Assembly (NCBI GenBank): GCA_018340375.1
Contig: JAFFJZ010000003.1
Location: 22,940,001 to 23,004,000, forward strand
Direction of reading: 5' to 3'
From: Gonatopus flavifemur
Taxonomy: Eukaryota; Arthropoda; Insecta; Hymenoptera; Dryinidae
Length of the DNA stretch: 64,000 bases
Position numbers and translations under genes: made by a program. The notes beneath the pieces were generated by a model that was not told the DNA's origin, searched no databases, and saw only the letters and a list, made by a program, of their open reading frames with translations. Positions 1,282-62,120 of the stretch are shown here, piece after piece. Every line of letters starts with the position of its first letter. The first letter of the stretch is position 1.

Positions 1282-2415
1282 CCCTGGTAAAAAAATCTCT
1301 CTGAATCTCTCTGAAAATTTCACGTTTCAGAGAGATTCAGAAAGAATCAGAGAAATTCAGAGCAATTCAGCGTGGTTCAAAGGATTTCAGAGACTAGTGG
1401 ATTGAGAGAACTTGTGCTTCGAATTTTTCAGAAGGATTCAGAAAAATTCAGAGGAACTCAGAGAGATGCAGGGAAATTCTGGGAAATTCAGAGAGGAACA
1501 AATTCAGTGAACTTCTTGGTCCTGGATTTCAGAAGCGTTCAAGGAGTGTCAGACACTTTCAGAGATAGATGAATTCAGAAAGATTGTGCGCAGAAATTTT
1601 CAGAAATATTCAGAGGAATTTAGAAAGATTTAAAGTAATTCAGAGAGATTCAGAGGAATTCAGAGAAATTCAAAGAGGAATTAATTCAGCTAAATTTTTG
1701 GTTTAGGATTTCAGAGGTATTCAGGGAGTGTCAGAGACTCACAGAGACAGGTGAATTAGGAAAAATTGTGCGTGGGATTTTTCAGAAAAATTCAGAGAGA
1801 TTCAAAGGAATTTAGAGAGATGCAGGAGGGTCTGGGAAATTCAGAGAGGAATGAATTCAATAAAATTCTTGGTCCTGCATTTCAGAGGCTTTCTGGAAGT
1901 TTCAGAGAATTCCAAAGGAAGATAGATTGAGAAAAATTGGACGTGGAATTTTTGAGAAATATTTAGAGGAATTTAGAAAGATTCAGAGTAATCCAGAGAG
2001 ATTCAGAGAAATGCAGGGGAATTCAGAGGAAGCTTTGAAATCTGAATACATTAAATTCCTGGAGATTTAGAGGAATTCAGAGAGATTCAGAGAAATTCAG
2101 AGGGATTCAGAGGAAGCTTTGAAATTTGTATACATTAGATTCCGGGAGATTTAGAGAAATTTAGAAATATTCAGGTAAATTCAGAGGGAGCTTTGAAATT
2201 TAAATATATAAAATTCTGAGGGATTCAGTGATATGCGGAGAGATTCAGAGAAAGTTGAAGAATCCAGAAAGCATCACTATCGGAAAAGTCTCTAACTTCC
2301 TCTGAGTTACTCTAGAATTACCCTGAATCTCTTTGAAATTTGTCCCAAAATATAAAGAGATTCAGAGAAATTCAGAGAGATTTCAGAGAGATTCAGAGAG
2401 ATTTTTTCACCAGGG
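1282..2415. mobile_element. Foldback element A, TTCAGAGA-array body
   Basis: Termini are CCCTGGTAAAAA and its complement TTTTTTCACCAGGG, flanked by GC on both sides (palindromic, so weak on its own). The interior of about 1.1 kb is a degenerate tandem array of TTCAGAGA / GAGATTCAGA units that changes orientation at both ends. It sits inside the hAT frame, which is restored when it is omitted with one GC. A related array is at 28660-29960. Confidence 0.8.
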
Positions 2416-2753
2416 GCACCAAAAGACAAGCGAGAATGTGTGAAAGCACCAATATCAATAGAAGTCCGAAACATAAAGCATGTGGAGAAACAAAATTTAG
2501 AAAAAGATAGCACCTGTACAAAGCAGAAAGAAAAAGACGAATCATACTACATGTTTCAAGAGGACTCAAACTCATAATTTGCTGATGTCGATACTAATGA
2601 GAGCGATCTGGAAGTTCTTCAATATCTTGAAGACGTGAACACTTCTCTTGAAATGCTGCATGCTTACCCCACAATTAAAAAAATATTCTTAAGATTCAAT
2701 ACTTGTCTACCTAGCTCTGCGCCAGTGGAACGCCTGTTTTCATTCGGAGGTAT

Positions 2754-3007
2754 CCCAATAAACATTTGATTTCTCAAGATATGTTTTAGATATGTTTAAG
2801 ATGTCTTATGCGACACTTTTAGATATCTAAAAGATAACTTTTCGTATCTTGAGATATCTTAAACATGTCTTGGACGTTTTAAGAGACGTAAGATATGTTT
2901 AAGATATCTCAAGATACGAAAAGTTATCTTTCAGATATCTAAAAGTGTCGCATAAGACATCTTAAACATATCTAAAACATATCTTGAGAAATCAAATGTT
3001 TATTGGG
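2754..3007. mobile_element. Foldback element B, AAGATATCTT-type body
   Basis: This is an almost perfect 254-bp palindrome with termini CCCAATAAACATTTGAT and its complement, flanked by AT on each side. The arms contain repeated AGATATCTT/AAGATAT motifs. It interrupts the hAT frame directly after the GG of the VERLFSFGG segment; omitting the element and one AT restores the frame. Its arms are very similar, so it is probably young. It shares tips with the element at 30313-30553. Confidence 0.9.
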
Positions 3008-4084
3008 ATGATTATGAGACCTCATAGGAGAAAAATGAGTGACGAATTATTTGAAAAACTAGTCCTATTAAAATCAAACAAATTTTAATTAAAAAACAAA
3101 TGAAATTATTTTTATTCATTCTTCAATTAACTATAGTATACTTATTTTATTGCGATGAATTAATCAAACACTCGGTAATGATGTAGCTTCAAATTCTCCA
3201 TGAAAACCAAAAATTCTATTTCCAATGAAACCATTTCCAAAATACCCATTTTGCATTTTGCATTTTCCATATGTCTTCCAAAACTATTTTACATTTCGCA
3301 TTTGAAATTGGAAATAATTAGGCATTTTATATTTTCTATTTCAAATGCATTACAACACCCATTTTGCACATCTCTGTCGTGAACCCAAAAAAAGGACACA
3401 CACACAAACATACGCAGATAGACAGAAAGACACACAGACATTTCTGGAGATCGCGTTTTTTCGACGTTCTGAAGCTTTTGGCAAAGACGAAATACCCTCT
3501 TCTGCATAATGGATTTTTGACGGTATCACAATACTCCCGTTTCCTTATGCATAAGGAATATGAGAATAAAAATTGGCGACCGCATCATTCCGAACATTAT
3601 GTATTCTTTCTTCGTGTATATTCAAGTATTCGTAGTTCAATGCGAGTGTGAGTAAATCAAACTTCCAGAGCAAGCATTGACATCAGCCCTTGTTAGGCCC
3701 TTCCAAGTTCCTCCCCAACTAACATTCAGACATCTTAAAGATATCTTTAAGAAGTCTCAATGCGTTTGTAAGAAGTCTTAAAAAACGTTCTAAAAGATAC
3801 CGAAACGAATCCTAAAAGATGTCTTATGAAACACGTATAGAATTCGAAAAGATATCTTGAAGAGTTCTTAAAGATGTCTTGAAGAGTTCTTAAATATGTC
3901 TTGAAGAGTTCTTAAAGATGTCTTGAAGAGTTCTTAAAGATGTCTTGGAGAATTCATAAAAACGTCTTGGAAGACTCTTGAATTTGTTCACAAAAAAAAT
4001 TCTTAACCTTTTCTTTTTCCTTTCCCTCCTGTTTCTTCAACTGCTCTCGCGTTCCGATAAAGTTTACCTGATTTCGACCCTTGT

Positions 4085-4155
4085 TGTTACGGGAATCGAA
4101 CCCATTCACTTGACGATATATTTACGCCTCAGTCACTTGAGCTATACGTACAACA
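4085..4155 (-). repeat. tRNA-like (SINE-type) sequence
   Basis: Read on the minus strand there is a perfect B-box GGTTCGATTCC with a TTCGATT loop closed by a 5-bp stem (one wobble pair), and an A-box-like TAGCTCAAGTGACTGAGG upstream. The outer 7-nt arms pair at 6 of 7 positions. The spacing between the acceptor arm and the D arm is too long for a normal tRNA, so I read it as a tRNA-derived SINE head or pseudo-tRNA. Confidence 0.45.
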
Positions 4156-4576
4156 TGGTAGAGACGCCCATAATTGGCAATATGACATAATGAAATATGT
4201 CAGCGGTGTCCAGTTTCAAAGTGAAAATGATCTTTTGAACAAACTGTTATCACATGAATAAATATCAAAAGAGTTGAATGTAATTACAAATAGGAAAGAT
4301 GAATAAATTTAGTGAAACATATTTAGAAATCAATTCTGTGTTCTAGTAGTCGTTAATATTTCGTGAATACCGCAGATTCTTCCTAAAGTATTTCTGACGA
4401 ATTGTTGTGAAGTGGATATTCGGTAATTTTATTGTGCACGTCATAAGGCGACAAAATCGTACTTTTTACAAACTTTCAAATTTCTTGATATCTCAATGAT
4501 TGATTCAAGATTTTAATTCATGGATATGGAATCACCTCATTTGCAATACGATTGTAATAACAGGTACATTCAAAGT

Positions 4577-4582
4577 TTTATT
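4577..4582 (-). terminator. Candidate poly(A) signal of the peptidase gene
   Basis: AATAAA on the minus strand (CAGAATAAAACTT), about 380 nt past the stop at 4961. No AATAAA occurs in the 76 bp between the stop and foldback element C, so this signal, inside the element, is the nearest candidate I see. Confidence 0.3.
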
Positions 4583-4960
4583 CTGTGTTATTCATGATCA
4601 TGTGCTCATATAACCTCAAAGCTGCTGAAAAATTTATGTTCTTAAACGTGTCTTAATCAAGACATCTTTCCGAAATCTCCTCAAGACTTCTAAAAGATAT
4701 CTTCAAGAACTCTTCAATAACGTTCTTGAAGACCTCTGAATCAAGACATCTTTTAGAAATCTTTTACAAGATGTCTTTCCAACACTTCTAAGAGATATCT
4801 TTAAGAACTCTTCAAGAAAGTTCTTAAAGATCTCTCAATTAAGTATTCTTTTAGATATCTTCAAGAATTGAAATGTTAGTTGGGTCCTTAGCGGCTGGAC
4901 TCACGCTAGTCCCTGATGAGATTCTCGTGAGTTCCGAGAATTGCGCTGCAAGGGTCGTTT

Positions 4961-5143: not shown

Positions 5144-8100
5144 CTACAACGGAATTTTTGAATGAAATAATAAATCAAATATAAAAGTATGATTGAACTT
5201 ACATTGGCGAAGGATAAAAAGAATAACTGATCGTTACTGAGGTTTTGTAAGCCAGGGAGCACTTCTCGCGAGACACCGTTTTTCTCTTCTCTTCGTTTAA
5301 AAGCTGCGAAAGCAGACAATAGTCCCATGGTGTCTGCGATATTTTCATCCCTCGTTTGATTACCATAGCCCTATGCACGGGGAAGAATAATTCGTTAATA
5401 TTTGGATAGCCAAAAATATTGCTGCAACAGCTAAATTTCAGCAGCTAAGTAGCTAGCACGGGCACGGACAGCCATTAAATTAGCTCCTGCAGCTAAATTT
5501 AATGGCTGTCCGTGTCCGTGCTAGCTACTTAGGGATCGTCCATAAATTACGTAACGCTATTGACTGTATCTTTCTCTATCTCGCTCATCATGTCTGAAGT
5601 TGATGCAACAAGGAACGACAGAAGGAAAAGCGTTACGTAATTTATGGACAGTCCCTTAGCTGCTGCAGCTGAATTATTTTTTCCGTGTATGGTAATAACT
5701 TTTGTTGCCATAGCTGAAAATAGCTACCAAAACTTTTCGTCAGTTACCCAAATATCAACATCTTTTTTTCCATGTATATGTGTTATATATGGATCATATA
5801 TGTCTAATTTTCACTGAGGGAAAACGTAACTGTCACAGCAAAAATATCACGGCTGAATTGTTTTGCTATCAAAATATCCACCACCAAAGTTTTGCTGTCA
5901 CAGCTACGAAGTTTTGCTGGGACAGCTGATAAACAGCTATAGATGCCTTCATTTTATCTGTAAAAGCGACAAGAGTGAGGCAAAAAAGTGAGTAACTGCC
6001 ACGGCAAATTCATTTCTCTCCGTATGAGCTTCCCTGCTGAAAGTGCCAGGCAGATCCGGACAAAAAATAATTGTCTGGATTTGATCAGTTTTTCTCCCAA
6101 GAAATCCAGTGAAAAACTGACAAAATTTCTACCTGGTTTCGTCCGGAATCACCGAATTGTAATAGCCTGTCAAAACCTGGCAGAAACATTTTAACATCTT
6201 CGTCAGGTTTTGACTGGATATCACAGTCTGCGAATTTCAAAAAGAACCGTCGCAAAAAATGTCTGTCAGTTTTTGACTGGATATTCCAATTTGGTGATTC
6301 CGGACGAAACCAGGTAGAAATTTTGTCAGTTTTTGACCGGATTTCCTGGGACAAAAACCGATCAAATCCTAACAAATATTCTTCGTCCGGATTTGCCTGG
6401 CATTTCCAGCAGGGTTGTCAGAAACAAATGAGAATCAATTTGCATAGCGAAAGTATTATGAATAAAAACATATGATTACGTACCTCAATTCGAGTACCGT
6501 TATTATCAATGCTGTAGCCCTCATACTGATCAACAAAACATTGTACTCTTTTGCTCCATTCATCGGTCATTGTCGATGACCATTTGACGTCTGTACCGTT
6601 TTTGCCGTTTAAATGCCCTGGGAACGGAAAAATACATGGAATCATCCTTTCTGATGAAAAGAATTGAAATTTATTTCATTATCACCATTATGCACAGTCA
6701 TATCCTTAGTAATTTACATAGTTTATATACAGTCTATATCCCACATAACACAAGGGGGCATAACGAATACAATGTATTCGTATATAATTCTTTTAGAACT
6801 CTTGTGCTATCTGGGATATAAGTCTCCTCCATTACTAAGCGGCTGGCCACGCCGATGATAATCACCACTTACTGGAATCATCGAATCCGTGGTTTAGCTC
6901 ATGACCCATAGTTACACCCACGCTGCCAAAATTGATTGCACTGAAATCATAATAAAACCAATCGGACCAAAATTGGAAGCACTAGAATCATTCGAGTTTG
7001 TTTCTCAATCTAATTTTCATCCCTGGTCAAAAAACTGAATAAACCTCAAGAAACAATTCTACTTACGACTACTTCCGACCTACTTACTATGTGTTTTCAT
7101 CTCGTAAATTTCGGGAATAAAACTAAACACCATTTGTATGCATCATTTCTGTATAAACGTATTCAATGACCTTAGTATTGTTTCCGTATATCATCAATCG
7201 ACTTTCTCAGGTCAACTTCAAGCTTTAATGAAACAAATTACTTCATCACACTTCCGCAAACAAAGAATTTGATTTTTTAGGTCCTGTTCCGCACTTGGAA
7301 AAACAATTTACTTGAAATTGAATATCCGATTTACGAAGAACTGGAGCAAAAATAAAATAAAAATTATTTCGAATCGATCAAAAAATTCTATACATTCTAT
7401 GAATTTGTGAACACCTATATTTTTGTATTCCACTTGGAAATTAGGATGAATTTATTGATACCTAAAGGGGATTGAACTCTTACCGAATCTATCTACTTAT
7501 AAGACTCACCTAATTAATCTCTAAGGAACAGGAAGGAACAGGACAGTCACCGAAGAATTACGTTGCATCTCCGAAAAATTGAGGGAGATGAAAGGGAGGG
7601 GTGGATATAACGCGGCACAATAACGGAGAAGCAGCGCGCTGCAGCGGGGAGGCGACAAAGAAATGTCCGGGCCGTTTTTTCGGGTGGACATCTCTCCGTT
7701 GCCTCTACTCTGCTTCTCCGTCGTACCACGCTGTATCTACCGACCTTTTTTCTCCCTGAATTCCACGGAGAGGCGACGTAGGTGTCCTGTATGGGTAACA
7801 CGCTGCTCCAAGATTAAATATTTGATAATGGGGATAAGAAGTTCCAAGACCAAGGCAAAAATTAGTGTTTGTCGAGACGGGTATTTATTGTAAAATCCTT
7901 CAGCCGCACGACGTTTCGAGTTGATACAACTCTTTTTCAAGTACAAAAAAAGATTTCTTTGGTCTTGGCACTTCTTATCCCCATTATCAACGATTTGCAC
8001 ACCAGGCACTCTCCAACCAGTAATAAAAGAGTAAATATTGTCACTCATATTGTAGAGGGGATCGAAAGTCTGATTACGCATTCGTGATTCTGTTTCGGTT

Positions 8101-11100
8101 TCCGTAGTTGGAAGTAGTTACATTTCGCGTTTGAGAAGATAATTTTCAATTAACTATACGAACATCTTTGGTTTTAATCTACTCTGGTTGACTTATGAAA
8201 AATCTGAGATGGAATTTTGAACAAAAATTACGCATCATGACCACCTGATCAGCTTCCGCGAATTTCCGTCGGGGGCTATTGCGAATAATTCCATGCACTT
8301 CTGAGGAAAAGAATTTTGGTTCATAAATCAACGTACTTATATTCACACGCAAGATATGTCCACGTAATCGGAAGTCATACATGCGGACACTAAACATAAC
8401 TGCACCCAAGTAATACATGGGAACTGTGTTCTTAGGTCTGAGCAGAAGTCCGCGAAAGTTGATCAGGTCACATGACATTATTTCCGATTTTTCATAAGTA
8501 AACAGATTTGAACCTAAGATGGACCTAAGTAATTGGAAGTCATCCACGCGGTCAGTGAACTCAATGACCCCAAAATAAATTCGTGCGAAAATAAATCGGA
8601 AATGCATCGAAACAGTTTTCTTGCATCCGGAGATGACCGGAATCATAGTGTCGTCCAGGTTATCATAGGCGTGTCCAGGTTAGCCAAATTGTGGGCAGTG
8701 CTGCCAGAAATGAAGGAGCTCCAGCGTTTTACCCCCTCCATGTACCATCGCAGAGCACGCACGCTATAACTATATATATGACATCTATAGTTATAGCGTG
8801 CGTGCTCTGCGATGGTACATGGAGAGGGTAAAACGCTGGAGCTCCTTCATTTCTGGCAGCACTGATTGTGGGTGCCCAAGTGGCAAATTTTTCAAAATTA
8901 TATATAAATTATATATAAACTATATTGAATTATACATGAGTGTTACATACACGGAGAAAAAATGGACTGCTACTATAGCGCCTACATAGAAATTTATTGT
9001 CCTTTCAAAAATATTCACTCCAGCAGCTAAGACGGTTAACAAATCCTGTTAACAAATTTGTTTATGTCAGCAAAAAAATGTAGTTGTGTCAATCATTTTT
9101 CTTGCTCTTGCAACTAATTTTTTTTTGTAATAACAAACCTACTTGTTATGCCAGCAATACTTTTTCCTCCGTGTATAATTTTGAGAATTTTTCCACTTTG
9201 TTGTCAGTACCCTTATTTTTGTTGATTTAGCATTTCCTATGCTGTATTGTTTCGTCTAGATAATATTGTTGTGGAAAGGAATAGATATCGGACTGTGAAT
9301 TGTGGGTGCCAGTGCACCCACGGCACCCACCGTAGGCACGCCTATGCAGGTTATACGTAACTGAACCCATACTCTCTACGTGTGGATTGCGGAAGTCGGT
9401 GAAATCAATTATCACTTAGATGGCAATTTAGCCTTGCTGCAATGTTGTCAGGGAAGCTTGTGACAAGGTTGACATAAGCCCCCTAGTTGACACACGAGAA
9501 GGATACAAGCTTACAAAACCCTTGCAGCAGAGTTGTAGCAACCTTACACTGACAAGGTTGTCAATAACAACTCAAAAACAATCGAATGACAAGTCTGACA
9601 AGCTTATGACAAGCTCACATGTTATCTGGGCATGTGGAAGAGAATCCTAAGGGATGGGGAACTCTCTACACGTGTAAAATTTTCATTCGGAAGTACTCGG
9701 AAGAGATTCCAAATGATTTGAAAACATCTATTTTGAAAACATTTAGGTTTGTTAAGATATTTTAACCAGGAATAAATAACGCACGATCAAGAATGAATTG
9801 TGTGAAAATAGTTTTCGAGTTTCTGAAATCATACCATAATTTGTCTCTCTTTATTAGAATTGTACAATCAGTCACAAATTGATCAGGAGTTCTACTCACC
9901 TAGTTAGTTTAGGACTAAGTAATATATCCAGCAATACAGCTGCAGGGAATCCTAAGAAGTGAATTAGATGTTGAAAAGACCATTCAGCTCTCACGAATCC
10001 CGTATTGAAATTGACAACTGTACTCACCTACTACGACATTGTTTAAATCGTCATACCACGCATTGTAAACAAGAGGCCTATACTCCCATCTGAAACGGGA
10101 AGTAATTCACCGTACTCAGAGTGGTTTTAAGTTTGAAGAAGTATATTTTAAATTTGGATAATTTATTCAAAGATGATGAATGCAAAACCTACCGAACAGG
10201 TTCATTTTGTTTAAAAAGTTGGAATCCTTTTTTTAGCTTCCACTTGACGAACCTCAGTGTATTCTCATAAAATGAGCGATCCATCATAAACTGGAATACA
10301 ATGCAATAATGATTTTATTCTTGAATAATAATTAATATATAATATATGTTGGATAAGCGAAAAATCAAATGATCTCATTCAAATGTACTTGGAATCAAAA
10401 GACTATAAGAACTGATCTGTAACAAATGTTTGAAACCCACATAAAAATCTTCAAGCTCCACCAATACTGACGATAGAATATAGCTGAACGCAAGGCTGGA
10501 CAATCCACGCAAAAGCAAAAGTGGTTGACAATGTTTTAGATATTGTACCAATATAAGCGATCAATAAATTCCGTTCGTTAATGCATCATTGATCATAGGC
10601 TGCGCCACGCCTGACCCATCCTTCGACCAATATTGTCTGGAGAAAAAAACTAGTTCCACACAAGGGTTTTTAGCGCATGGCGGAACCCTGCCTCAAGCAT
10701 TAGGCAATAGCTTGGTCCAGCTTAAGCGACGGTTATGCCCGGCTTGAACAGTAGCTTGACTCAACTTCAGCGCACTTCAGCGATGGCTTGGCCCAAGAAG
10801 AATCAGATAGAGTGGAAACGGCCATAACACAACAATACAATTTTCCGTGGCAAGTTTCAGCGCCTCCTCGTATCTCAGTGGCTAAGTATTTCGAAGAGAT
10901 ACACACAGAGAGAAAATGAGAGGGCTCACGGGCACCTTTTCACTGATAGTAAAAGTTCCACCGGTCCTCTGACGGTTCGATCATGAAAGTTGACACACTG
11001 CAATTTTATTTTTTAATACTACAAAATCGCGCATTTCTTTCGTATACTTTTCAACACGTATTTGATTAAAATGATTTTATGTATCGATGTTGAATGCATA

Positions 11101-14100
11101 TAATTTTTCATCATCATGAATAAGAAAAATGGAAAATGAGAGAGGGGGTTGATGGACCAGGTTCCGTTTTCCATCCGATGAGAGGGCGCTTCGATGTTTA
11201 CTATCGATGGAACCCCGGCCGTGAGCTCTCTCATCTAGGGATCCTTTAATGAGGGATCGGACAATCAACTGCTGATAACGGATTGGTCGGCCGCCATTAG
11301 TGGGATAGGTACTGGTATTTATGAAAATATTCGAGATACATATTTAAAGTCAGCTTATTCATGTATAATACTTACAATTAAGTGAATCTGAAACATTCTT
11401 CGAACAAAGCATGTAAATACATTTGAGAAAAATGATTTTAATAAAATAACATACACTATGCATGCTTAACTAAACCATAGAAAAAACCGGAAGTATCCCA
11501 CTAATGGTGACTGATTGTCCGATCCCTCATTAAAGGATCCCTACTCTCATCTTCTCTCTGATACACATGATGAATAGGAGCAGTTTGCCACTGAGACTGC
11601 AGATGGCCTACTTAGCCGAATACGCAGCGCTTCCACTATCTGATCCTCTTTGGCTTGGCCCAGGGTGACACTCCCTTCTCAAGCGACAAATTGCGATAAC
11701 GCTCACCAGAATGTTGCTTGCTTCTATTGCGAGGGACAAACCAAGCATTCAATGAATATATAACCCATACAGCACCACAGATTTCAGTAATATTTCATAA
11801 ATATTCTTGAAACATTGCAGAAATAATTCAGAAATATTGCATTGAAATGTAAGATTAGCGGACATCTCAATATTTCTGAAAGAATTTTGAAACCTCGGTG
11901 TGACATGCAGCAATGTCATAGAAACATTTCAATGTTCCAGATGTTAGATTTCTGCAATCTTAATGAAATCTTCGGTGCTGTGTGGGAAGTCTCCTCTGAA
12001 GATTCCATGACTGAAGGAATTCTCCGACATTTATTTCCTTCATATCGAAATGACTGAATGGATGTTTTTTTTTTATTTTCAACTACAATAAAAAATTAAA
12101 ACGATCATTGGCGTGAGATAGGTGCAACACTGCCGCAAGATTACGACAGCGTTGGCTCTTCTCTGGCCAAAAAATTTTTCTACTGTTTCCCATTTATGAG
12201 GAATGCTATCACAACCCTATCCCCAGTGTTGAGTCTCTATTATAGAAACTATTGGGCTGAGGCTCGAATGATGTTATGATTTCAGAGTTGCACCATGCAT
12301 GGTAACCTAAGCTCGACCCATCTTGATGAGCCTAACGCCCATGGTAAATTTTCATCTGGGAAACGTTCATGTTTCAAAATTCGAATAAGCATTTTGTGAG
12401 TTGCGATATCTTTTAGACAGGTTCCAGATCACTACGCAACACTTTTAGACAACGTTCGAACCAATTCTATTGAAAAGTTCATCCAAAACATATCTTCAAC
12501 GTGATCTTGCATCTAAAAGATGTCTTGAAAACAAGTTTACAAATATCAACGTCCTATTAAGAAATACTTATTGTGTGCGGTGAATCATTGATTTTTCATA
12601 CTCATGCATTGATGTCGAATTCTCAAACACTTATTGCAGATCAGTTTTTGCGATAATTCATACGAATGAGATAAAAGACGTGGCCCAATACATTGAATGC
12701 TCATTGCGCCGAAAATTCATATTTCGAACACCTATAGACCGAAAGTTCATTATGTTGGAAACGATCAGATCCGTCAATCTTGTAAAATCCACAAAAAATT
12801 GGGATTTTCATTCAATCAGCTACATCTGGCATAGTAATCTTTCGGTCTATCAGCGATCGGATTGTAGATTTTCGGTGCAATGAGCATTCGGTGTATTGTA
12901 GGCTCACTGAAATCAAGTCATTCAACTTTGAGATATGTTATTAAATTTCATTATTCATGGAATGCTTTTTCCCTTCCTTTGTCTTTGATATGTACATCTG
13001 TGACGATCAAGGGGGGGGGTTCATACATACAGCCAATACGCTGATTCAGAAGTCAGGAATTTTTCCTACAAACATACCCCTTTGTAGTGTTGTTGCATCA
13101 TCGTTTCATTCTTATACCAACTTGGATAACCAACTAGTTTTTCAATGTCTTTCAATTTCTCGAGCAAAATCTCCTTTGTTTCTGCATCCAACCATTCTGA
13201 TCCTTCAACTTGTATTTCACATTCTCTTTGGATGTCATCGAGCATTTCTAAAACCTAAGAAATTGAGAAAATCCATATTCATTATATATTATGCCCCCAT
13301 ACGATGTATGGTACATGATCGCACTGGAAAAAAAAACCAAAGTTTTCCTCCAAGTTGGAAGAAACATTTTGATCTAAAAAATTTTGAATTTGGAGACAAA
13401 ACAGTGTTTTGTCCATCGACAGGATCACAGCGCTTCCCTCTAACGAGAAAGCAAAAGTATGGTTCCCGTAACGATCTAAAAGTATTTCAATTATAGCTAT
13501 CTTGATAGATGGTCAAAGTGACGATCCGTATTGTTGTCATAACTATACGGTACTTTTACCATCTGTGAAGTTAGCTATAATTGAAATACTCGTGGATTGT
13601 TTCAGGAACTATACTTTCTTTCATTGCAAGTTAAGGTATACCAGCGAGTGCTGGAGATGCAACGCGAGCAAAATCTTTTCTGACAAATTATTCGAAAACA
13701 AAGCAATAAAATCAAAATATCGCTCCGTACAGACCATTTTTATTGATTAAAAAAGGTCTGTACAGATCCATATTTCGATTTTATTGCTTTATTTACGTAC
13801 AATTTGTCAGAATAATTTGTCTTTTCCCAAAGAATGGTTCTTGTTGCGTCTTCAGGGGTCGCTGGTATCCCTTCAATGAATATAAATCACTTCAGAGTGA
13901 AAATCTGATGTTTAATCGCTGACAACGTTCACACAAAACCATCTCAAAAATACAAACCAGGGAAAATTCACTTTCGAAGGCCATAAAAGTCGAATTTTCA
14001 AAAGGTTCCTGGTTAAACATATTTTGTGTTAACCTTAGGTACACTGTTAAAAATTTCTTGAAATTTCATTCATTTTTCCAGTAGACTTGTGAATGAAATT

Positions 14101-30312: not shown

Positions 30313-30553
30313 CCCAATAAACATTTTTGGATCAGTCTAAAAGATATCTCAAAGAGGTCCAAAAGATTTCTTACGCAACAAATGTAGATAAGTTTAAGAC
30401 ATCTTGTAGAAAGATATCTTTGAGATATCTAAAAGACATTTTGAAGGAAGACATCTCAAACATATCTAAATTTGTTACGTAAGACATGTTTTAGATCTCT
30501 TTCAGATTTCTTTTAGAGTGTTCCAGAAGACTTCTATAAAAATGTTTATTGGG
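30313..30553. mobile_element. Foldback element BB, AAAGATATCT body
   Basis: 241 bp. Termini CCCAATAAACATTTT and AAAATGTTTATTGGG with the non-palindromic duplication AC. Same tips as 2754-3007. Confidence 0.85.
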
Positions 30554-33980: not shown

Positions 33981-34088
33981 CCCAAGTAACACAAGAAGTT
34001 CTAAGAATGGGCTCGAACATTCTAAGAATGGTCCAGCACCTTCTTAGACTGTTCGAGCACATTCTTAGAACTTCTTGTGTTACTTGGG
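33981..34088. mobile_element. Foldback element EE (108 bp)
   Basis: Termini CCCAAGTAACACAAGAAG and complement, perfect for about 30 bp, with the non-palindromic duplication AA. Body motif TTCTAAGAATG. Confidence 0.85.
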
Positions 34089-34143
34089 AAAATATTGATC
34101 CAAATAAAAGACAATAAAAGTCCTACTTTAGAGTGGCAGTGGC

Positions 34144-34458: not shown

Positions 34459-34724
34459 GGCAGTGGCATAGGGCTGGCCTCGAATCTGGCAGCGCTGATG
34501 GTCACAAGACCAGATGGAACCACACTCGATCAAATACAGATCTTAAATTTTCTAATCCGTTCTTACTTGCAGAGACTTATGCTTGTGCCGTCCTTACGTC
34601 ATCTAGCTTGCCACCCCTTGTAAAGATAGCAAAAATTAAGAGAAATTTGAATTACCTAAATTAGTCGAACAGTAAATCAAGAAATATGATTTTCCAAAAA
34701 ATGTTGTTTCACTACCCGAAGGGA

Positions 34725-35217
34725 ACATGAAGCTCCGACGAACGTTCAGAATAGATCATGATAGATCAGACTGAAGCTCCGTTGGAGCTCAATTTTAGAT
34801 TCGGAAACGTTCGACGAAGGTCCGATGAACGTTGAAATGTCCGCTTGAAAATAGCTTGAATGAAGGTTCATAGAACGTTTATTAAAGATTCTACGAAGAT
34901 TCATTCAACCTTCAGTTTTTTATGTTTCAGACGGAATTACAATTATAGTTAGAAATGCCCCAATCTTTCATTTTTTCGTGGAAAAATATACTTTGAAAAA
35001 AACTTTGATCGAAAAATTGCAACTCGAACGAACCTTTAGCAAACGTTCGATGAACGTTTTATAAACGTTCATTCAAACTATTTTCAAGTGGACATTTCAA
35101 CGTTCATCGGACCTTCGTCGAACGTTTACGAATCTAAACTTGAGCTCCAACAGAGCTTCAGTCTGATCTATCATGATCTATTCTGAACATTTGTCGGAGC
35201 TTCATGTTCCCTTCGGG
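34725..35217. mobile_element. Foldback element GG, CGAACGTTCG-type body
   Basis: 493 bp. Termini CCCGAAGGGAACATGAAGCT and complement flanked by TA. Arms repeat GAACGTTCG and TGATCATGATAG units. Same family as 14192-14694. Confidence 0.85.
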
Positions 35218-49700: not shown

Positions 49701-52700
49701 CAGATGGTACAAACGTTTCAAAGAGGGCAATCATAGTTTGAATAACCAGGAACGCGAAGGTTGTCCAGAAAATTGTCTAAACGAATATTTGCAAGTGTTG
49801 CTTGACGAAAACCCACGCTAAGTAAAAAAGAATTAGTGAACGTGCTTGGGATTGATAATCCCGACTAGAAATTTAGCCCATGGACCAGATCAGGTCAACT
49901 TTGATCCAGCCCAGGTCCTGGTAAGGCAACCTCCTCAGGACCTGACAAGTCATGTTACGCTTTACTAATATAAGGACCCTATGAGGCAAGACTAATAAGG
50001 ATTTGATGCGAAATCCCATACCAAAACCTCCAGAATAAATCGAAATTAGGATATAAACAGGAAATTCACAACCCAAAAATTTTTTATTCGGCATGGAGAG
50101 ATCTAACTTGAAAGATATGCACACTTGACATCTGTTCAGAAATATACAATCAGGAGTATACCATCTAAAATTAAGACATTTTTGCATTCACTTTATTAAA
50201 CTATATTTTATAAACATGTATGTTCATAATCTCAGGATAACCTAACATTGTCTTGATGAGATTACAGCGAGGGAAATCTATTTCAACCTTCTAGGACAAT
50301 TTAGGGGAAACCTAATTAGGATCAAATGGGCTTATCCCTACGTGGGGCATCCACATCCAATTCTGTTTAGGACTTCAGCAAGTATACCGTATTTCGGATG
50401 ACCTTGTTAGGTCCTTACCATATGTCACGTTAACCCTATGATAATTTCCGGTCGGGATGGAACACGATTTTCAGGCATTTAAACACGATGAGAAAAATTG
50501 TGAAAGCAGGACGGTGGGTTCAGGAAATTCGGTCTCTGAATCCCGGCGAGTTGTCAGGGCAAGGAAGTGGGGCTGCAGCCGTTGTCATCATGCTAACACA
50601 GTTCTGTGCTGGGGGATCACTCTTTTTAAGTCCCATAATGAGCATGAACCTAGGACCACCTTTTGTCTACCCTGAGACTATTCGCGTCACCGTTCAACGG
50701 AGAGACCCGTACAGCACAACCACCGTTTCTTCACCTAGGACTTCGGTGGAGAATTGGTGGAGAAATGGGAGTCGTGAAAGTAAGAGAGAAATATTTTCAA
50801 TAAAATTCATGTTGGTGGATTAATACATTCAGATTTGGTGATGTAAATGCACCGTTATGAATTTTACTGAAAATACAGAGGGCGAACATTCCTCCGTCAC
50901 CTCTCCGTTGCCTCAACGAAGACTCTCCCTCATTTTTCCCTCATTCACACGGCTCCCATTTCTCCATCAATTTTCCACCTTCATTCCACCGAAGTTCTAG
51001 GTGGGGGATCGGTGGTTGTGCTGTACTGGGAGTTTGGTCCTTCTCTCGCTGACCTGTCTTTCCTATTAGCTTCGAAATTGAGGAGGGTTGAGCCACTTCT
51101 CATTCCCTATTTTAGCCAACTTCGTTGGATGTTCACGGAAATATGCAAGCAGAAGACCGAACGCTCACTCAAAATCATTTGACTCATTATAGTCATGGCA
51201 ACTATGTGAGAGGACAAATATTCAATCATAATTTCTCCAACTCTTTTTATAGGTAATGCGAGTATATAAATAGTTTTCATTACTGTAAACAAATTACTGT
51301 ACCTGTTTATTTAGTTGTGGATACTGAATGCGAATAGTTGTCCTCAAACAGTTGATGTGACTATTTAAATTTCTCTCGGTGTATGATTTATGTTGCAAGT
51401 TTTGAAATGTAGGGAAACCCACTACACCTCGCCACCTTCTGCAACTACCGAAATGGCGGCGGCGGGCTGTGTCTCATGGGGGTCTGACCCGGTAACACGA
51501 GATTCCCATCTGGGAATTTTCCACAGAGTTTTGTTATCTCGTGTGAATATGACTTCATACGTTACTGGACAAAATGAATCATACACTGCTTACGAAATTC
51601 CAATTGTTTTATGACTGAACGGGACGTTGAGTACCGACAAAAGGGAAGGATGAGGATTTCTCGAGATTGAGGAAGCCAAATATGACGAAGAGTATACTGA
51701 ATTTGGCAGGAAACAATCCATTATATACGACATAGTTGTGAGTGGTGCATGATTTATTTTGTGCATCAGTGTATGAGATTAAGGGCATTCCAAAGTCCTA
51801 AGAAATCCTGAATCCCCCCCCCCTCCCCCTACTCTTCTCGAAAGCGCCTAAATAAATCGAAAAATAAAACGTTCTGGGCCGTACTTGAAGTAGAATGAAT
51901 TCTAATGATGGAGTTTGTAGCCCAATTCGGAAAATTTAATAGAAAGCTCGACTAATTACTTGGAATTGGACTATAAACTTTATTATTAGAATCCATTCTA
52001 CTCCAAGTACAGCCCAGAACGTTTTGTTTTGTCGCATCAACACGAAACGTTGAAAAACGATTAATTACTTGGAATCGGACTACAAATTTCATTATTTTCC
52101 GATTTATTCAGTCGTTTCCGAGAAAAGTGATGGAGATATTTGGGATTTCTTGGGACTTTGAATCCACATACGAATTTCGCGATCCCATCTATCCGGGGAT
52201 TCTGAATTGGGCCAATGTTCGATCCCGAATGGACCAGGTTCGTATACATATGAGGGCTTATTTATTTCCTGGACGGGACAATACAGGACCTACATGACCA
52301 CACGAAGGTTCCACCCGATCATATGAGAGTTTCACCCGGAAATTTCCAATATGGGAGACTCTTAGTTCTGGTTGAATGATTGGATTTTATTCGAGTTTTC
52401 GTGTTCCGTCCGAGTTCTTATGTCCGACTTGGATCTCCACACCCCGTCCGAGTTCCCGCCCCTCCCCAGACTTCTATATGGAATGAGATTCCCAAATTTG
52501 CATATAATTCAGTTCTCGACTAGGTACCCGGGGATCTGGGTACTTCAATTATAACACAAATTTCACCTATAAAATAATTTTTTACTACAGGAGTTTCTTT
52601 CAATTATCAAATATTTTATATATAGACTCTGCAAATGCGATTTGATTTATGCCCAGATAGCACACAATGTCTCAGTAATATTCTCAAAATATCACAAATA

Positions 52701-55700
52701 TCTCACTCTGAACATTCTATGTTGAATATTTCTACGAGATTCCATAGCTATTGCGGATAGAATATTTCATCAAAAATATTTTGAGAATCTCGCAATTGAA
52801 ATATTGCACATATGATATCCTGCAATGTTCTGGGAATCTATGATGAGGGATATTTAATGTTTGTTGCAAATGGAATATTCTGAGAATATTTCAGTAGCAA
52901 TATTTCATGTGGCAGTAAGAATTTTTGTTCATCAGACCCGGTACTTCGTAAAATTTACAAGTCGGGGGCGAAAGAACCCACTGAGCATTTCCGTTAAAAC
53001 CTTGCATTAATATTGCAGCATAAAATTGCACCGATGTTACATTGTCAAGTGATATTCCACTGATATTTCTGAAAGTTACATTTGTGATATTGTATTTGTA
53101 CATTGAAAAACAAGTACTTCCAAGATCACATCAACATTGCTGCAAAGTTAATGCGAGGTTCTAACGGAAATGCTCAGTGGGAAACCTCTCTCCCACGACC
53201 TATTCAATTTCAGTTTCAGAGGATTCTAAATTGATTGTTCTATATCCCACGGGAACAAATTTATTAGAAATACATCATTATGATGACAAAGAGTGGCACT
53301 TCAAGGGCATTGAAGTCATCTCAATGATTAGCGGAGGTGATAGAGGCTTTGTCCATGACTCGGAGAACTGGGGTTCGATCCTTACTGAGGGAATTCTCCT
53401 AATAATCGACATTCAATGTGTATTTCTCTGACAAATTCATCCAAATTATATTCTGTACAACATTTGTAGAGGAACTCATTCTGAAGAAAACTTTTTTTCC
53501 ACAAAAAGCATTATTTTGGACCATTGTTAATATACATAATTATGAGACGTTTTAAGAATATTACGACAATCATCTCAGTGATATTGCAGAATGTCACAAA
53601 AGACATTCTGGAGACATTCTAGCAATATTCTTGAGATGTACGCCACAATATTGCATATTTCGAATATAATATTCTGGCAATGTCATTGAGACATTCTGTG
53701 CTATGTGGGTGTAGAATAGATTTTTTTTTATTCACCGTACATCGAGGCATCGTTGAATAATGCAATGGTTCGGAAACAATTTTGAGTGAACCATAATACA
53801 AGTAATTCAGTTTCATTGCTTTCTCTTGGTCAATCTTCGTTTATTTTCATTCGCACACAATATTGACACACTGATAGGGCAAAAATATCGAATACAATTC
53901 CATTTATTTTTCAACCCCCGATCTTCGTATTTGTCATGAGACAAATTGCCATTTCGTATCGTCGTAATTTTCTTCCCAACGCTCAAGTGAAAAAGCGTAC
54001 TGTGGTTTGGAAAATAATTTCACATACGTTACATATTGAATCTAATGGGCATTTACGTGGAATTAAATATGTACATTTCACATGCATTGCCGTTAAGCTT
54101 TGTATATATTCTGCACGAAAATCAATTTTCATGGATTTTCAGGCGCAGAAAGCTTCCGGTAAACCGTATTGAAATTCATAACATTTTGAGCAGTGTGAAA
54201 TGTTTTATTATTCCACGAAATTCGAAGGAATAATTTATGAAAATTCAGAATTCATACAATGTTTATTGAGCATGGAAATTTTGTACATCTGGCCAATAAT
54301 TTTCAGATCGTTGAACCAAACGAATTCGTTTTTACTTAGCTAATTACCGAAACCGCTTCGATTTATAGCATTGAAATTCATTCAAACTTCTTTTATTTCA
54401 GTTCTTCTTCTCTACTGAAAAATCCCCTCCAGTGAATGTAAATGAGACACTTGATAAATAAGGTTGAATAAATCGCTCTCTTATAATCACCTTTTTTTCA
54501 AATGTATATAATTCATCTGGAATATATTGTGCGCGTAAATTTTTCATTCATTCGATGAAATATATTTGAGAGTATAATAAGGGTCAGGTTTGAATCCGAA
54601 TACTTCTTCGGTATCTGAGGGAATTTATATGAATGCAATGCTACAACCCTATCCATCCTAAAAAATGTTAAGCCTAATTTTCACAGAAAATTCGATTATG
54701 TATTTACATGGAGAAGAGAGATCGTGGAATCATTACTAGAAATGATAGTAAATTGGTTACTACTGCGAATTTTGTACACAGTCGCTATCAGGGACGAGCA
54801 ATGGTTCCTGATTTCATATATTTAAATACAATTTAGGATTCACGCAGGAATAGAAATATCTTTGAAATATTGAAACACCGAGATCTGTATCTCCAAAGAA
54901 AATGGATTGTTTCCCTCTTTGTACCATACAAAAATGATTACTGGCATTTCAATGGGCCGCTGATGGTCCTACGCTGTCAGGGAAGAGCCGTCACTGGGCC
55001 TTTAAGATGTCTACAATCGTGTTCGCTAAGATCATTCCACGTTCATCCACGAAAATTTAATACTATTGATTTGGATATTGTATTGCGGTGTTATTGCTCC
55101 TCCTCCTCTTTGTAATTCGCTCGTTTAAACATATTAAATTGATTTGAATACATTAATTCAAACTTTTACGTACTTTCATTCGCCGAGTTCAGGGGATTAT
55201 ACAATACATTATTCCTATTATTTCAACCGTAAGAGAAATAAATTTTTTCTTGGTTTCTGTTTTATTCTGCTCTGTTTTCTTACTCTTGTTGTTACATCTG
55301 ACAGTTGAATGACAATGATTCCTCATTGCCGCAGATTTACAACTACAAAAAAGTATAAAAATTATTTATCTTTTCCCTTTGTTCCTTTTTTCTCCCTGTA
55401 TTGTATCTTTCAATTAATTTTTCTCTATCGCTTCAAATTATCACGACGAATTTCGATTCTCCGATTGATCAGTAGGTATTCGTTGAGTTTATTTTGTCGA
55501 CTAACGCTTGGCAAGAAAAGTTCCTCGTCATTGTTCTAGCACCCGATTCGCCATTGGATTTTCTTTTCTTCATACATCTCAAGGAAGATATTCTTTTTAC
55601 TTCTGTAAGAGCTGTGTAGGTCGCTTCCGAGAGATAAAAGGTTTTTATTTCTTCGGGTTGTGTCTTCACAATGTCACAAGGTGGTTTTCATCGGAGAACA

Positions 55701-57148: not shown

Positions 57149-57193
57149 CTACAAAAGAAAACAAATTTGCATTAGACGATATTCAAATGTATA

Positions 57194-57799: not shown

Positions 57800-59460
57800 G
57801 ATGGGCCAATACTGGCTGAGTACTGTTGCCAGTACTGGCGAATGCACTCTCACCGTTACAGAGCCAGTTGAATTAACGATACTGACCCGGATTAGGAATG
57901 ACAACACCGTTGAACGTAAGGGCCAGAATAACATCTACCGCTGTGTCAGGACTGGTTTTTTATGAGGGATCTCTGGCGCTTCAAAAGGACCAGTTGTTTT
58001 GCCAGAGCTAATTAAGAGATTGGAATACATTTTCCTCAGTATTGTTAACGAAGAAAGGCATTTTGAAAGTGACGCCTTGCAAGTACACCTAATGAGAATT
58101 GAACCCAGGTTCCTGTGAGTGGAAAACCCGAGTCTCTATCAAATCAGCCAATCTCCAATGTGTTGTATTCTATGTTGTTATGAAGTCTGGCTTAGTACTG
58201 GCGTATCTCTGTATCACTAAAACAGCCGTATTCCTACACTGTGAAAAATAATCGAAATTTTCCTATACGCAGCAATCGGAACCAATTTCTCATGAATTGA
58301 CCTAAAAATTTCAAACTTTATGGAATTTTTACTATCATCTTTTAGCAAATTTCCAATGAAATACGGGAAATTCCTAACGTATGTATGTATCAACTACTCC
58401 CGAATATTTATGCAAAGTTTCCCATATAAATTTTTTACAGTGTAAACCGTTGATTGGAACTTCACCCCCCATTGATTCCGTAGTGAGATAAAGTTGTATC
58501 AATACTGGCATAGTGTAGTTCTTTTACGGTATTCTACGTCATTATAGAGTCTGGTTTAGTACTGGCAGATCTCGATCTCATTGAAACAGCCTTATTCCTA
58601 GACCGTTAGTTGGAACTCCGTTCCTCTATCGATTCCGTAGTAAGAAAGAGTTGTATCAATACTAGTACAGTCTCATACCTTTTCAGTGATGTACACTGAC
58701 ACCTTTGGTTTGGTACTGGCACTGTGTTGTTACACAAAAAGAAATATGTCGTTACGAACTTAATTTTACCTCAAATTCACTACTGATTCCGTGGTAAGAC
58801 AACGTTGCACCGGTGCTGGTAGTATGTTGTCTTTTCGTGTATTCCGCAGCGTTATCAGTTCTGGTTCACTACTGGCCCAGTCTCGTCTTACGAAAGCAAC
58901 TGTACAACTACAGAATGAATTTGGTTTCTGATCTCTTACCAACTCAGTATTAGGAGAACGTTGTAGCAATACCGTTAGAGTATCATTTAATTAGTGCTGG
59001 CTCAGTTCTGACATAGCCTGGGTCTATTGAAATAAAGTTGATTTGGATTCTGATTCACAACCGATTTTGTAGTGAGACAATGTTGTATGAATACTAGCTC
59101 GTACAAGGTTGCCAACTCTAGTTTGATACTGGGACAGTTTCGTTTTCCTAAAACTTGAGTGAAGATTGAGTACTGGCGCAGAACTGTCTGTCTACGGGAA
59201 CCAATACTTTTTGAAATCCGTCCAACGATTGGTGTCAGTTGAGAAACAGTAATGACCCTGTATGGAAATCGTTGTTTCTGTCGGATTCCGGCAAATACAA
59301 CCTTGCCAATACTGCGCCTCTTGACAACTCTGGTAATTTCCACATGGGCACTATGGAGTTCGTTGAGGTGGTTAACGCGGTGCTTACCCTGACTACTAAT
59401 GAGTTGCAACAACTACTCAACCACGGCTCGAAAGCCGAGTAAGGCAGATCGAGGCAAATC
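57800..59460. repeat. CCAGTACTGGC-array region
   Basis: Many scattered units of CCAGTACTGG, AGTACTGGC and CAATACTGG in both orientations, interrupted at 58237-58442. Short open frames here are repeat translation. Similar units occur at 39480-39830 and 45970-46190. Confidence 0.6.
58237..58442. mobile_element. Foldback element QQ, CACTGTGAAAAATAATCG tip
   Basis: 206 bp. Termini CACTGTGAAAAAT and ATTTTTTACAGTG flanked by TA. Nested in the CCAGTACTGG array. Confidence 0.65.
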
Positions 59461-59759
59461 GAATCACAAGGTGAATCTGATTAGAATCAGCATATTGGCT
59501 GTTTTTGATTTTTTTATTGTTAATTACACTCTCTTCACGTGTCAGTTGCTTACATAATCTCACCACCCACTGGAGAAAAAGATAACACGACCGTAAAACA
59601 CATCATTTAGTCCTGGGCAATGATACAAGTTGTAGTTTCGTGCGCATGAAGGAGAATTTTATCATTGATATACACGGGAAGAATATCATCTTATAAATTA
59701 CACTGGTCAAAATTGAGGCGGTAGCTATAAGAAGGGCACATTTTTCCATCCTCCTCAGC

Positions 59760-60259
59760 AGAAATCACTCTAGTAATTCTCTAGGCCCTGCGACACCTCA
59801 CCAGCACGATGTAAGAAGAATAGGTGTGTTATCTTTTGTATGTGTTGTGGGATTTTTCTGTCCTAGTTCTTGATTTTGCCACTACGAAATTCGAGTAGCT
59901 AAGGCCAAAAAAAAGCGGTGAATTCAAATTAGATGTTAGAAATACTAATCCAAATTGATCAAGACAGAAATTAAAATCGTATTATAAGACATAACATTTA
60001 CAGAGGGAAGTTATTTTTCATTTAAACTTGATTTTATTTTAAAAAATCGAAATTTATCTGGCCTTCACGACACTTTCGCCAACTGGTGGCGAAATTGGAA
60101 CTAGGACAAAGCCTGCATCAAAAAATGTTCACACCGACAGGGAAGATAACACACCTATTCTTCTTACATCGTGCTCACCAGGCACTTGTGAGGGACTTGC
60201 GGGGCCTCGCGAGGCCTTGTAATCGCCTGGAGAACGACTAGAGCGATTTCTACTAGGGC
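59760..60259. repeat. Long inverted repeat
   Basis: Arms contain CACGATGTAAGAAGAATAGG and complement, then GTGTGTTATCTT / AAGATAACACAC; outside these CTAGTAATTCTC and GCGATTTCTACTAG mirror weakly. Probably two nested elements. Confidence 0.6.
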
Positions 60260-61819
60260 TACACATTACTTTTCATTTCAACAATCAAATTCACATCGTT
60301 GTCATTCCATCAAAGATTTAAATCTCCACCAAAAATTGAGCATTTTTTCGAACTATTCAGTCTAACGAATAAAGAACTTCGTTCCAATTCGATTTTTTTC
60401 TTCAATGTATAACTGCATTACACAGTAAGAAGTCGAATTGAATGTGGCTGCATGTTACTCGAAAACTTGATTGAAATTCAGCCTTTTCCATTGTCTTGGC
60501 ATTTGTTTTCGGTGCTGAATTTCAGGTGAAACAGGGCTAGTTTTGGCTGCATCTTAAAATCAGCTAATATTCAGGATGAAAGTTAGTTTGACTTTTTATA
60601 GTGAATATAAAAACATTGATGATCTTCAAGAAATTCTATAGATATAATCATTTAAATACATCATACACAATTAATTGTAAATCATTGTGAAAGATCCGTT
60701 AAATTCAGCATCTGATTTGTTTTCTAATTATCGACATTTCCTTTCGCTTGCGTGTGTTTTTTTGTACTCTCAAGTACCTGACAAATTCCAACCACGCGAA
60801 TACCACCAATTCATTCCAAGCAATTATACCGCGCGGAATTACCGAGATAACATCCTGTGTAACAAGAGTTGCAGGCGAAACCTCATCTCCCCCCGTCGTT
60901 AACAGACCAGAAATGCGCTACAACTGTGATACGTATACCTGTAGTGTGTCTTTGTTGATTTCTTCGTTATTTTTTCATTCATTTATACTAGTCGGGTAAC
61001 CTTGTATACTTCATTGAACTTTCAAAACCAAGCGAAATGAATGCATTAAGTTCACCGCCAATTTTGTGACAAATATTTTACGTTCATATCAAGCTTGGGC
61101 AGAACACATTTGCATAGAATTGTTCGATGAAGAAAACTCGATCCGCTGATGCAGACCTGAGAGGATTGAAAATCAAATTATCAAACCTAGTTTCATTTTT
61201 GTTCTTCGGTATGACTCTGACAGATGTTTCCAATGATCTAAACGAACCGCTACGGTTCGTGTATAGATATGCAAAATCAGCTACGCTATCACACGGTAAT
61301 CGAAAACTTCATTAGTGTTCTCATTTGGATTACGTTTGTTGCAAGTCGAGTGGATGGGATCATTATGTTTTTACATGCAGGGGTTTTATACGCTTGTGGG
61401 TTTGTTGATTGTTTTCTTTTGGTACCATCCATTGTGAATTATTTAGTACTTTTGGTTGAGAATTCTTCTGAGAGCTAAAGATATATTTTTACTCCTATAG
61501 GATTATAATCAATTCATCATCACCCTAGTGACAATCAGCACATGGAGCGACATGGAAGAGTCAAAAAAGCAGCATCTAAGCGGGAAAGAAGCGGATATTG
61601 AAACGTTTTGACACTTCATTCGTTTCAACATTCGTTTTATGTGTTCCAACATTCGCTTTCCACGAGCGGAAATTTTCACCAGGGCATACACGGAAAAAAT
61701 ATTGTCATCATCACTTTTCAGTTTTGTTACCATAGCCATACACAATATGCTCAAAGGAAGAAGTTTATTGGTTATTGGTTATAAATGACTGAGGCACATT
61801 TATGCGTATACCACAAGTA
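60260..61819. other. Calexcitin intron, no gene recognised
   Basis: AT-rich sequence with open frames of up to 83 codons that match no family I know. An unpaired CACGGAAAAAATATTG tip is at 61689. Confidence 0.4.
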
Positions 61820-62120
61820 CACGGAAAGACCGGGTCTATTAATATTTAGAAAAATGACTGTCAATTTAGGGAACAGGAGGATCGCTGAAAAATATTCGTA
61901 GTGAGTCTACTAAAAGTTCGTAGTCGATGTATTAACAATTGACAGTTTCACTGTGAAAAATACCAATGAAACTATATCATCTGTTAATATTTTGACTAAG
62001 AATTTTTGGTAGACTCACTACAAATATTTTTCAGCGATCCTCTTTTTCCCTCAACTGACAGTCATTTTTCCAAACGTTGATAAATTCTTTCTCAATATTA
62101 ATAGACCCAGTCTTTCCATG
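61820..62120. mobile_element. Foldback element RR, CACGGAAAGACCGGG tip
   Basis: 301 bp. Termini CACGGAAAGAC and GTCTTTCCATG flanked by TA; arms GGATCGCTGAAAAATATT / AATATTTTTCAGCGATCC. Confidence 0.75.

Follow-up and report, generated by a model that had tools for sequence, protein, structure and literature searches.

We analysed a window of 64,000 nucleotides from the dryinid wasp Gonatopus flavifemur (assembly GCA_018340375.1, contig JAFFJZ010000003.1, positions 22,940,001 to 23,004,000), which holds many short hairpin-like transposon remnants that duplicated two target bases on insertion. We catalogued 30 inverted-repeat (foldback) elements with CCC or CAC tips: 14 belong to a CCC....ARCAY class, nine have other CCC tips, and seven are CAC elements. 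Identical 2-bp flanks are found in 29 of the 30, a figure that describes the catalogue and is not a rate, because the elements were selected by eye with their flanks visible; the catalogue leaves out a CAC inverted repeat at 48295-48492 (flanks TA/CA) and motif pairs lacking arm similarity. The original prediction of at least 25 such elements, nearly all with the same dinucleotide on both outer sides, therefore holds, and the rates given below for the window and for a 200-kb sample confirm the enrichment. The window foldbacks are mostly 76-1341 bp long, and no gene was found in them. Those with CCC tips are non-autonomous and fall into the animal CACTA branch (TRC, Transposase_21), a kind already known.

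All 14 non-self-complementary pairs of flanks listed in the original prediction are present, 13 of them also when the far end is chosen as the best 16-base match, blind to the flank. They comprise TC at the CCCAACTAACATT foldback (3714..4884, with 11-bp repeats of AAGATATCTT type); TT at the CCCTGCTGRAARTGCC foldback (6032..6414) and the CACTGTAAAAAATG CAC foldback (47667..47871); AA at the CCCATACAGCACC element (11764..11986), the CCCACACATCA/CCCACACAGCAC element (23832..25172, with 11-bp repeats GAATTC), the CCCTACAAACA/CCCAGCAAACAC element (31865..31972), the 108-bp CCCAAGTAACACAAG element (33981..34088) and the CCCACTGAGCATTT element (52977..53181); TG at the CCCACACAACACTCG foldback (21495..21830, within the loop of another foldback, 21399-21921), the CACTGAGGAAAGTATA / CACGGAGAAAAATATA element (29049..29290, to whose end motif pairing joined a start at 28936 instead) and the CCCAGATAGCACAC element (52652..53709, AATATT repeats); AC at the CCCAATAAACATTTTT element (30313..30553) and the CCCAGTGAACACA element (43875..44510, repeats TACGTA); and CA at the CACGGAAAATAGACAG CAC element (26158..26360). 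The exception to the blind choice is 31865, whose far end is not the best 16-base match; it pairs with 31972 via the inner arms and tip. Duplications of GT and AA flank a 76-bp CCCTAACAGCAC/CCCGTACAGCAC element (22964..23039, no 8-mer common to the arms) and an 84-bp CCCGAGTGAAAATTTT element (32853..32936), and a CCC...AAAAAA element with weak arms (26086..26385) has flanks AA/AA.

Self-complementary flanks, which are uninformative alone, are found as AT at the CCCAATAAACATT foldback (2754..3007, within a hAT transposase gene remnant), the 76-bp CCCACATAACAC element (6740..6815, no 8-mer common to the arms), the CCCGGGAAAAAAATG element (16323..16670, 10-bp repeats AGATCT) and the CCCGGGGAAAAGAG element (32119..32479, weak arms); as GC at the CCCTGGTRAAAAAA element (1282..2415, 10-bp repeats TTCAGA); and as TA at CACGGAGAAAAAATGG (8950..9173) and CACTGTGAAAAATAA (58237..58442), both with no 8-mer common to the arms, CACTGTTAAAAATTTC (14042..14816), CCCGAAGAGAACATG (14192..14694), CACGGACAGAATGAG (19709..20006), CCCGAAGGGAACATG (34715..35217) and CCCTGTAGAAGAAAT (47519..48156). 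Four elements are nested by coordinates: 52977 in 52652, 14192 in 14042, and the CAC elements 26158 in 26086 and 47667 in 47519. The sole misfit is the CCCGTACAGCACAACC element (50706..51030; flanks GA/AG), in which AG stands on both sides only if the left end is moved one base outward; it belongs to the same sequence family as L037:1013-1404 (flanks TT/TT). The interior of the 52652-53709 family holds a coding-like tract (frame 53165-53428), also present in L002, which has no Pfam match and is perhaps a captured gene piece. Another foldback, with TATACAGGGTGTCC tips, lies at 57190-57496 and is related to copies in L031 and, via L031, in L010.

The recurring tip proposed in the original prediction is better written CCCANNNARCAY. 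This consensus occurs 26 times on both strands of the window, whereas 30 simulated first-order Markov sequences have 1.2 on average and never more than 4.

Flanking dinucleotides were also scored over all 64 tips. In the window, identical non-self-complementary flanks accompany 11 of 19 CCC pairs and 129 of 3328 pairs of the other 63 tips; the CAC tips alone (3 of 28 pairs) are not convincing by themselves. In a genome sample of 200 kb (the first 20 of 80 random 10-kb stretches drawn from six large contigs), CCC (12/38) and CAC (10/58) rank first and second of the 64 tips for identical flanking dinucleotides, all non-CCC tips pooled having 402/7843. A reciprocal pairing by tip motif and arm similarity, with the flanks not consulted, covered the window plus 31 loci. 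Here CCCNNNNARCAY tips gave identical flanks in 18 of 21 pairs and in 13 of the 15 informative ones (9/10 in the window itself, the source of the motif, and 4/5 outside). All four pairs with CCCGAAG tips are identical (TA, TA, TT, and CT), as are 13 of 33 informative pairs with CACNG..AAA tips; among control tips, the counts are 0/18 for CAG and 3/27 for CTC. From this enrichment and from the reciprocal-pairing rates against controls we conclude that 2-bp duplications of loose sequence go with CCC and CAC tips alike, with the better evidence for CCC.

Copies of single families show the same pattern. The 108-bp element at 33981-34088 has 393 candidate copies in the genome; the best 40, itself included, were scored and are 97-100% identical, 35 of them aligning over exactly bases 1-108. 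Among 20 other copies, taken nearly all from the top of the list, flanks were compared for 19: the dinucleotides are identical in 16 (11 of the 13 informative cases), and three flanking bases are identical in one copy only. In the 52652-53709 family (best 40 of 688 candidates scored), the siblings L002 (CA) and L005 (GA) match at both ends, as judged by eye. The element nested in that family, 52977-53181, is missing from all seven fetched siblings (L002-L008, of the 40 scored), every one of which has just one AA at the corresponding point; alongside it L004 lacks one base, and slightly further on L005 lacks four.

A second empty site can be read from a reading frame. If 2754-3007 is excised with one AT kept, the surrounding hAT frame stays open for 84 residues to its stop, which it does not with two or none; the rejoined hAT dimerisation profile scores 27.5 bits (cut-off 21.4), compared with 15.3 for the left part alone and no match for the right part. 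By eye, a CCCTGG element in L006 has a CC duplication where the window copy and L002 hold one CC, and retaining a single TG closes the loop of the foldback that surrounds 21495-21830. Empty sites with a single-copy dinucleotide thus exist for two window elements (52977-53181 and 2754-3007), and together with the 108-bp family they bear out the earlier argument that extension of the inverted repeats cannot explain the duplications.

The length and looseness of the duplication also separate these elements from several well-known groups. Tc1/mariner elements duplicate only TA and piggyBac elements TTAA, whereas Chapaev duplications are 3-4 bp long and those of the Drosophila foldback (FB) elements 9 bp. 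We observed AG, GA, CA, AA, TG, TT, GT, and others rather than TA only; TTAA was found neither in paired elements nor in copies of the 108-bp family; and the duplication is 2 bp, not 3-4 or 9, both at the 52977 empty site and in the 108-bp family. Tc1/mariner was considered for the CCCGAAG family, which has TA/TA twice in the window, and was rejected on its copies elsewhere with TT and CT (the family of 14192-14694). In occasional copies (L064, L007, and 50706 in the window) an extra base separates CCC from the duplication, or three bases match (GTA), which hints at a variable stagger.

The genome holds a candidate source of the enzyme. PF02992 (Transposase_21) has 90 matches here, 80 of them above cut-off, and none in 14 control genomes; when the proteins of four such loci were rescanned, all four were above cut-off. 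Named relatives of the L031 protein (7989 candidates scored) include ants, braconid wasps, thrips, and fishes. In an alignment of 15 transposases, D233 and D318 are invariant and E478 is present in at least 90%; we take these residues to be the catalytic triad. Viral contigs searched with the 15 aligned transposases yielded no relative.

One full-size relative links CCC tips to Transposase_21 in this genome: a 13.1-kb element on C68 (1873464-1886565), which contains Transposase_21 frames between inverted repeats of ∼470 bp (97% identity) that begin CCCACGCAGAAAAAAATTGG and CCCGCGCAGAAAAAAATTGG. When the genome was searched with its terminus, 40 of 124 candidates were scored and produced 41 terminal alignments; 37 of these, including the element's own two ends, start exactly at CCC. 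Opposite-facing matches delimit one 14.9-kb copy and five copies of 0.8-2.2 kb, and five of these six end pairs are identical and non-self-complementary (AG/AG, GA/GA, CA/CA, AA/AA, and TG/TG). A 2-bp duplication of loose sequence is therefore common to full-size and shortened CCC-tipped elements. The proposed search for an autonomous element had a positive outcome for a closely similar CCC tip, CCCACGCAGAAAA, which does not extend to exact CCCANNNARCAY or to each short family.

At the other fetched transposase loci, candidate ends were rejected or were not found. Matches to CCCACACACCGGGG near the L029 transposase were discarded since this stretch occurs three times there. The pair at L030:461-3702 delimits a hAT element adjoining the Transposase_21 gene, with CAGGGTACCC (CAGGG) tips and, by eye, the 8-bp duplication ACTGTGAT. 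The L031 locus, followed over 17 kb (L036, L035, L031, and L037) without its ends being found, holds several insertions, one of which is a separate high-copy CACTG element. A further repeated element, from L031:123 to ∼3220, with a 725-aa frame (DUF7869, just under cut-off), is inserted in it; three sibling loci of this region have only bases 1-122 in common.

Published animal elements have closely similar features. TRC elements are animal CACTA-related transposons that encode Transposase_21 and have CCC tips as well as 2-bp direct repeats, the latter seen in seven of 14 copies of SmTRC1 of Schistosoma (DeMarco and colleagues; PMC1636069). The tip of the Tribolium TRC element is given as CCCTAGTAGCACCGAATATTTGTAAAA (CCCTAGTAGCACCGAATATTTG...), with a 2-bp duplication, and as CCCTAGTAGCACC it fits the window consensus CCCNNNNARCAY; CCC tips, 2-bp duplication, and Transposase_21 are shared features (PMC1636069). 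The TRC elements of Tribolium and Aedes are 5.2 and 9.2 kb long (PMC1636069), in contrast to the short foldbacks of the window, many families of which have 10/11-bp internal repeats. In Hydra, EnSpm-4N1_HM / Spongebob has the tip CCCAGCCAACATTGAC and a 2-bp duplication; written CCCAGCCAACATT, the tip fits CCCANNNARCAY, and Spongebob, like the window elements, has short non-autonomous copies in insects (PMC4298943). The portions of that description available mention no internal period, and the comparison covers tips and duplication.

Plant CACTA elements (En/Spm, Tgmt) resemble the window elements in combining a conserved tip with varying, family-specific subterminal repeats, which in plants are attributed to TNPA-like DNA-binding proteins (PMC2613891). 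Tgmt has CACTA tips and a 3-bp duplication, and the subterminal motifs range from 12 bp (En-1) to 17-20 bp (Tgm); the available portions of the text leave open whether all plant CACTA subterminal repeats are protein recognition sites, and the word 'helical' is absent from them (PMC2613891). The window elements differ from this plant type in having CCC rather than CACTA tips and, in the 108-bp family, 3-bp identity in just the one copy of 19. The CACTA link put forward in the original prediction stands for the CCC elements, on tip core, duplication, and the 13.1-kb Transposase_21 element; no transposase was tied to the CAC elements.

Inside the elements we find a regular spacing. Over 23 ARCAY-class elements (two without matching flanks), base identity has a mean z of 4.45 at lag 11 and 2.42 at lag 22, compared with set means of at most 0.85 at every lag in 20 sets of random segments. 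Lag 11 is the top of 42 lags in 17 of the 23 (18/24 with one more element). Counted over 16 sequence families, defined as having no mutual BLAST match of 50 bp or more at E 1e-6, it is top in 10 (in 400 random segments, the share is 7%), and the remaining six have their maxima at lags 10, 21, 21, 22, 31, and 9. The nine other CCC elements (CCCTGG, CCCGGG, CCCTCG, and the like) have lag 10 top in four and lag 11 in four. Among 54 inverted repeats without CCC/CAC at both ends, lag 11 is top in five, all of which lie within or contain CCC-tipped elements by coordinates. The repeated words are family-specific (GATATC, GAATTC, TACGTA, AATATT, AGATCT, TTCAGA). A spectral estimate of 11.6 is blurred, and the autocorrelation maxima at 11, 22, 33, and 44 are the reliable statement.

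The same period marks the ends of the 13.1-kb element. Of its eight outer 600-bp bins (the last of which overruns the end by ∼100 bp), seven place lag 11 among the top three of 42 lags, whereas none of the ten bins from 3615 to 9614, transposase frames included, does so; in the four intervening bins, it is first in one (9615) and third in one. A literature search, limited in coverage, turned up no paper that describes a helical or 11-bp period for CACTA ends or for miniature inverted-repeat transposable elements. What may be new in these results is that independent families have the 10/11-bp layout in common.

Taken together, the CCC elements are very probably non-autonomous, end-only derivatives of TRC-type animal CACTA (En/Spm) cut-and-paste transposons, served by Transposase_21 enzymes. 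Such enzymes, supplied by larger relatives elsewhere in the genome, would recognise the short conserved tip, which consists of CCC, four bases, and then A[A/G]CAY or [A/G]AAA. The transposase would cut at the tips and join them to the target with a 2-base stagger; the resulting 2-bp duplication, of loose sequence preference, is what we observe, and the enzyme is supplied by the model. The body of each element would be mainly an inverted subterminal region, an array of repeats of ∼11 bp (10 bp in some families). Since the tips are common to the families, and the repeats are family-specific and concentrated at full-size ends, the short elements may be regarded as ends lacking the middle. The spacing of the repeats, about one helical turn, suggests that protein molecules are aligned on a single side of the helix; the repeats may bind a transposase subunit or an accessory protein. 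Each short family was presumably moved by a Transposase_21-type enzyme, and the CAC elements perhaps by a related one. Tentatively, we also consider a one-turn rule, by which any family motif would do provided that it is spaced about one DNA turn (11 or 10 bp) in foldbacks and full-length ends alike, suggesting a subterminal protein on one face, with the conserved tip being read by the transposase; we hold this to be possible but somewhat improbable.

A number of observations weigh against derivation from Transposase_21 elements. None of the elements in the window was seen to carry a transposase gene, element ends were not found at three of the four fetched transposase loci (L029, L030, and L031), and no transposase could be tied in this genome to the exact CCCANNNARCAY tip: CCCACGCAGAAAA of the 13.1-kb element is close to it, not exact. 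That element's own duplication, AT/AT, is self-complementary, one of the six end pairs of its relatives is mismatched (TA/CA), and the genome scan with PF02992 gave no match in the 14.9-kb relative, which lies on C197. Flanks mismatch in three of the 19 copies of the 108-bp family, in L007 (by eye, one of three fetched 52652 siblings with both ends in view), at L029:2767-3559 (AC/CA), and in three CCCNNNNARCAY pairs of the reciprocal test; those three pairs share no arm 8-mer, yet neither do five of the 18 matching pairs. The loose CCC..RRAA motif reached only 12/52 informative pairs in the reciprocal test, and an earlier, looser ARCAY pairing on the 200 kb alone 5/12 pairs (3/10 informative), the latter because partners were visibly mispaired, and the reciprocal rule took its place. 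Could the identical dinucleotides, then, be an artefact of inverted-repeat extension or of chance pairing of ends? AT, TA, GC, and CG flanks prove nothing alone and make up five of the 18 matches in the reciprocal pairing, and loose rules do mispair. However, identical flanks that are not self-complementary are enriched at CCC tips in the window and the 200 kb, and at CAC tips in the 200 kb (unclear in the window); the enrichment appears also in motif-only pairing and among copies of a single family, and empty sites exist. The tip enrichment, the 52977 empty sites, and the 108-bp family copies rule out extension or chance as the cause, a reading to which we give practically no credence. It is also very unlikely that the CCC elements owe their movement to another short-duplication superfamily (Mirage, Chapaev, ISL2EU, or an undescribed one), with the Transposase_21 element only a look-alike in its tip. 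No transposase was found within an element with exact CCCANNNARCAY tips in this genome, in a search whose profiles did not include those of Mirage, Chapaev, and ISL2EU, and this would fit such a superfamily; but the Transposase_21 (TRC) elements described from Tribolium and Hydra combine the same tip core with 2-bp duplications (PMC1636069, PMC4298943), and in this genome the Transposase_21 element shares CCC, its relatives share the 2-bp duplications, and its ends share the 11-bp period.

The place of the CAC elements is more evenly balanced. The original prediction treated all the elements as a single lineage; its list mixes several tip classes with different internal repeats, and one lineage does not emerge from it. 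We see an even chance that CCC and CAC are separate lineages sharing only the length of the duplication, in which case CAC could be CACTA proper, Mirage, or another group. The two differ in tips, in copy structure, and in period, which in CAC elements is weak at 20-22 bp and in one large CACTG family strong at 22 bp near the end (z 10.3), and no transposase was linked to the CAC elements; yet their flanks behave like those of CCC elements, with the same loose 2-bp duplication, and the tips are broadly similar (C[C/A]C....[A/G]AAA). The large, high-copy CACTG element (L031:8950-10000 plus L037:1-114; 95-100% identity, best 40 of 667 candidates) ends ...TTTACAGTG, with a 22-bp repeat array near the end, and has right flanks TA, TG, and TG in three copies. 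Open to debate, too, is the period, for which we rate only slightly below even the chance that it is a neutral by-product of short-unit tandem duplication and not a functional register. Tandem Repeats Finder reports diverged arrays of 10-, 11-, 20-, and 22-bp units, the period is a whole number differing by class (10 or 11) and not 10.5 throughout, and best lags near multiples of the turn, found in 19 of 21 CCC/CAC inverted repeats, are common elsewhere (28/54 other inverted repeats and 35.5% of random segments). Lag 11 itself, in contrast, is top in 10 of the 16 unrelated families, far above its frequency in random segments, and is concentrated at the ends of the 13.1-kb element.

Several neighbouring features lie among the foldbacks. 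Two tRNA-Gly genes (gcc on the minus strand and acc on the plus strand) form the arms of a 393-bp inverted repeat at 25396-25788, in which 157 of 166 arm bases match; Rfam at gathering thresholds accepts only the plus-strand copy. An ACC anticodon is unusual for Gly. A mariner transposase remnant occupies 62126-63191 in two overlapping frames (HTH_48 and Transposase_1), and an exon of an M13 peptidase (Peptidase_M13_N), likely of a host gene, lies at 26597-26908 on the minus strand.

With the CCC elements read as end-only derivatives of animal CACTA transposons, a scatter of seemingly unrelated hairpins becomes one explained class, in which conserved CACTA tips are combined with interchangeable internal repeats. 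If the one-turn rule is true, the motif and a fast-changing protein could co-evolve, spawning many independent families while the register stays unchanged. If the 11-bp rule is functional, it would allow sequence-independent recognition of such elements and would yield a model of CACTA end assembly that can be tested.

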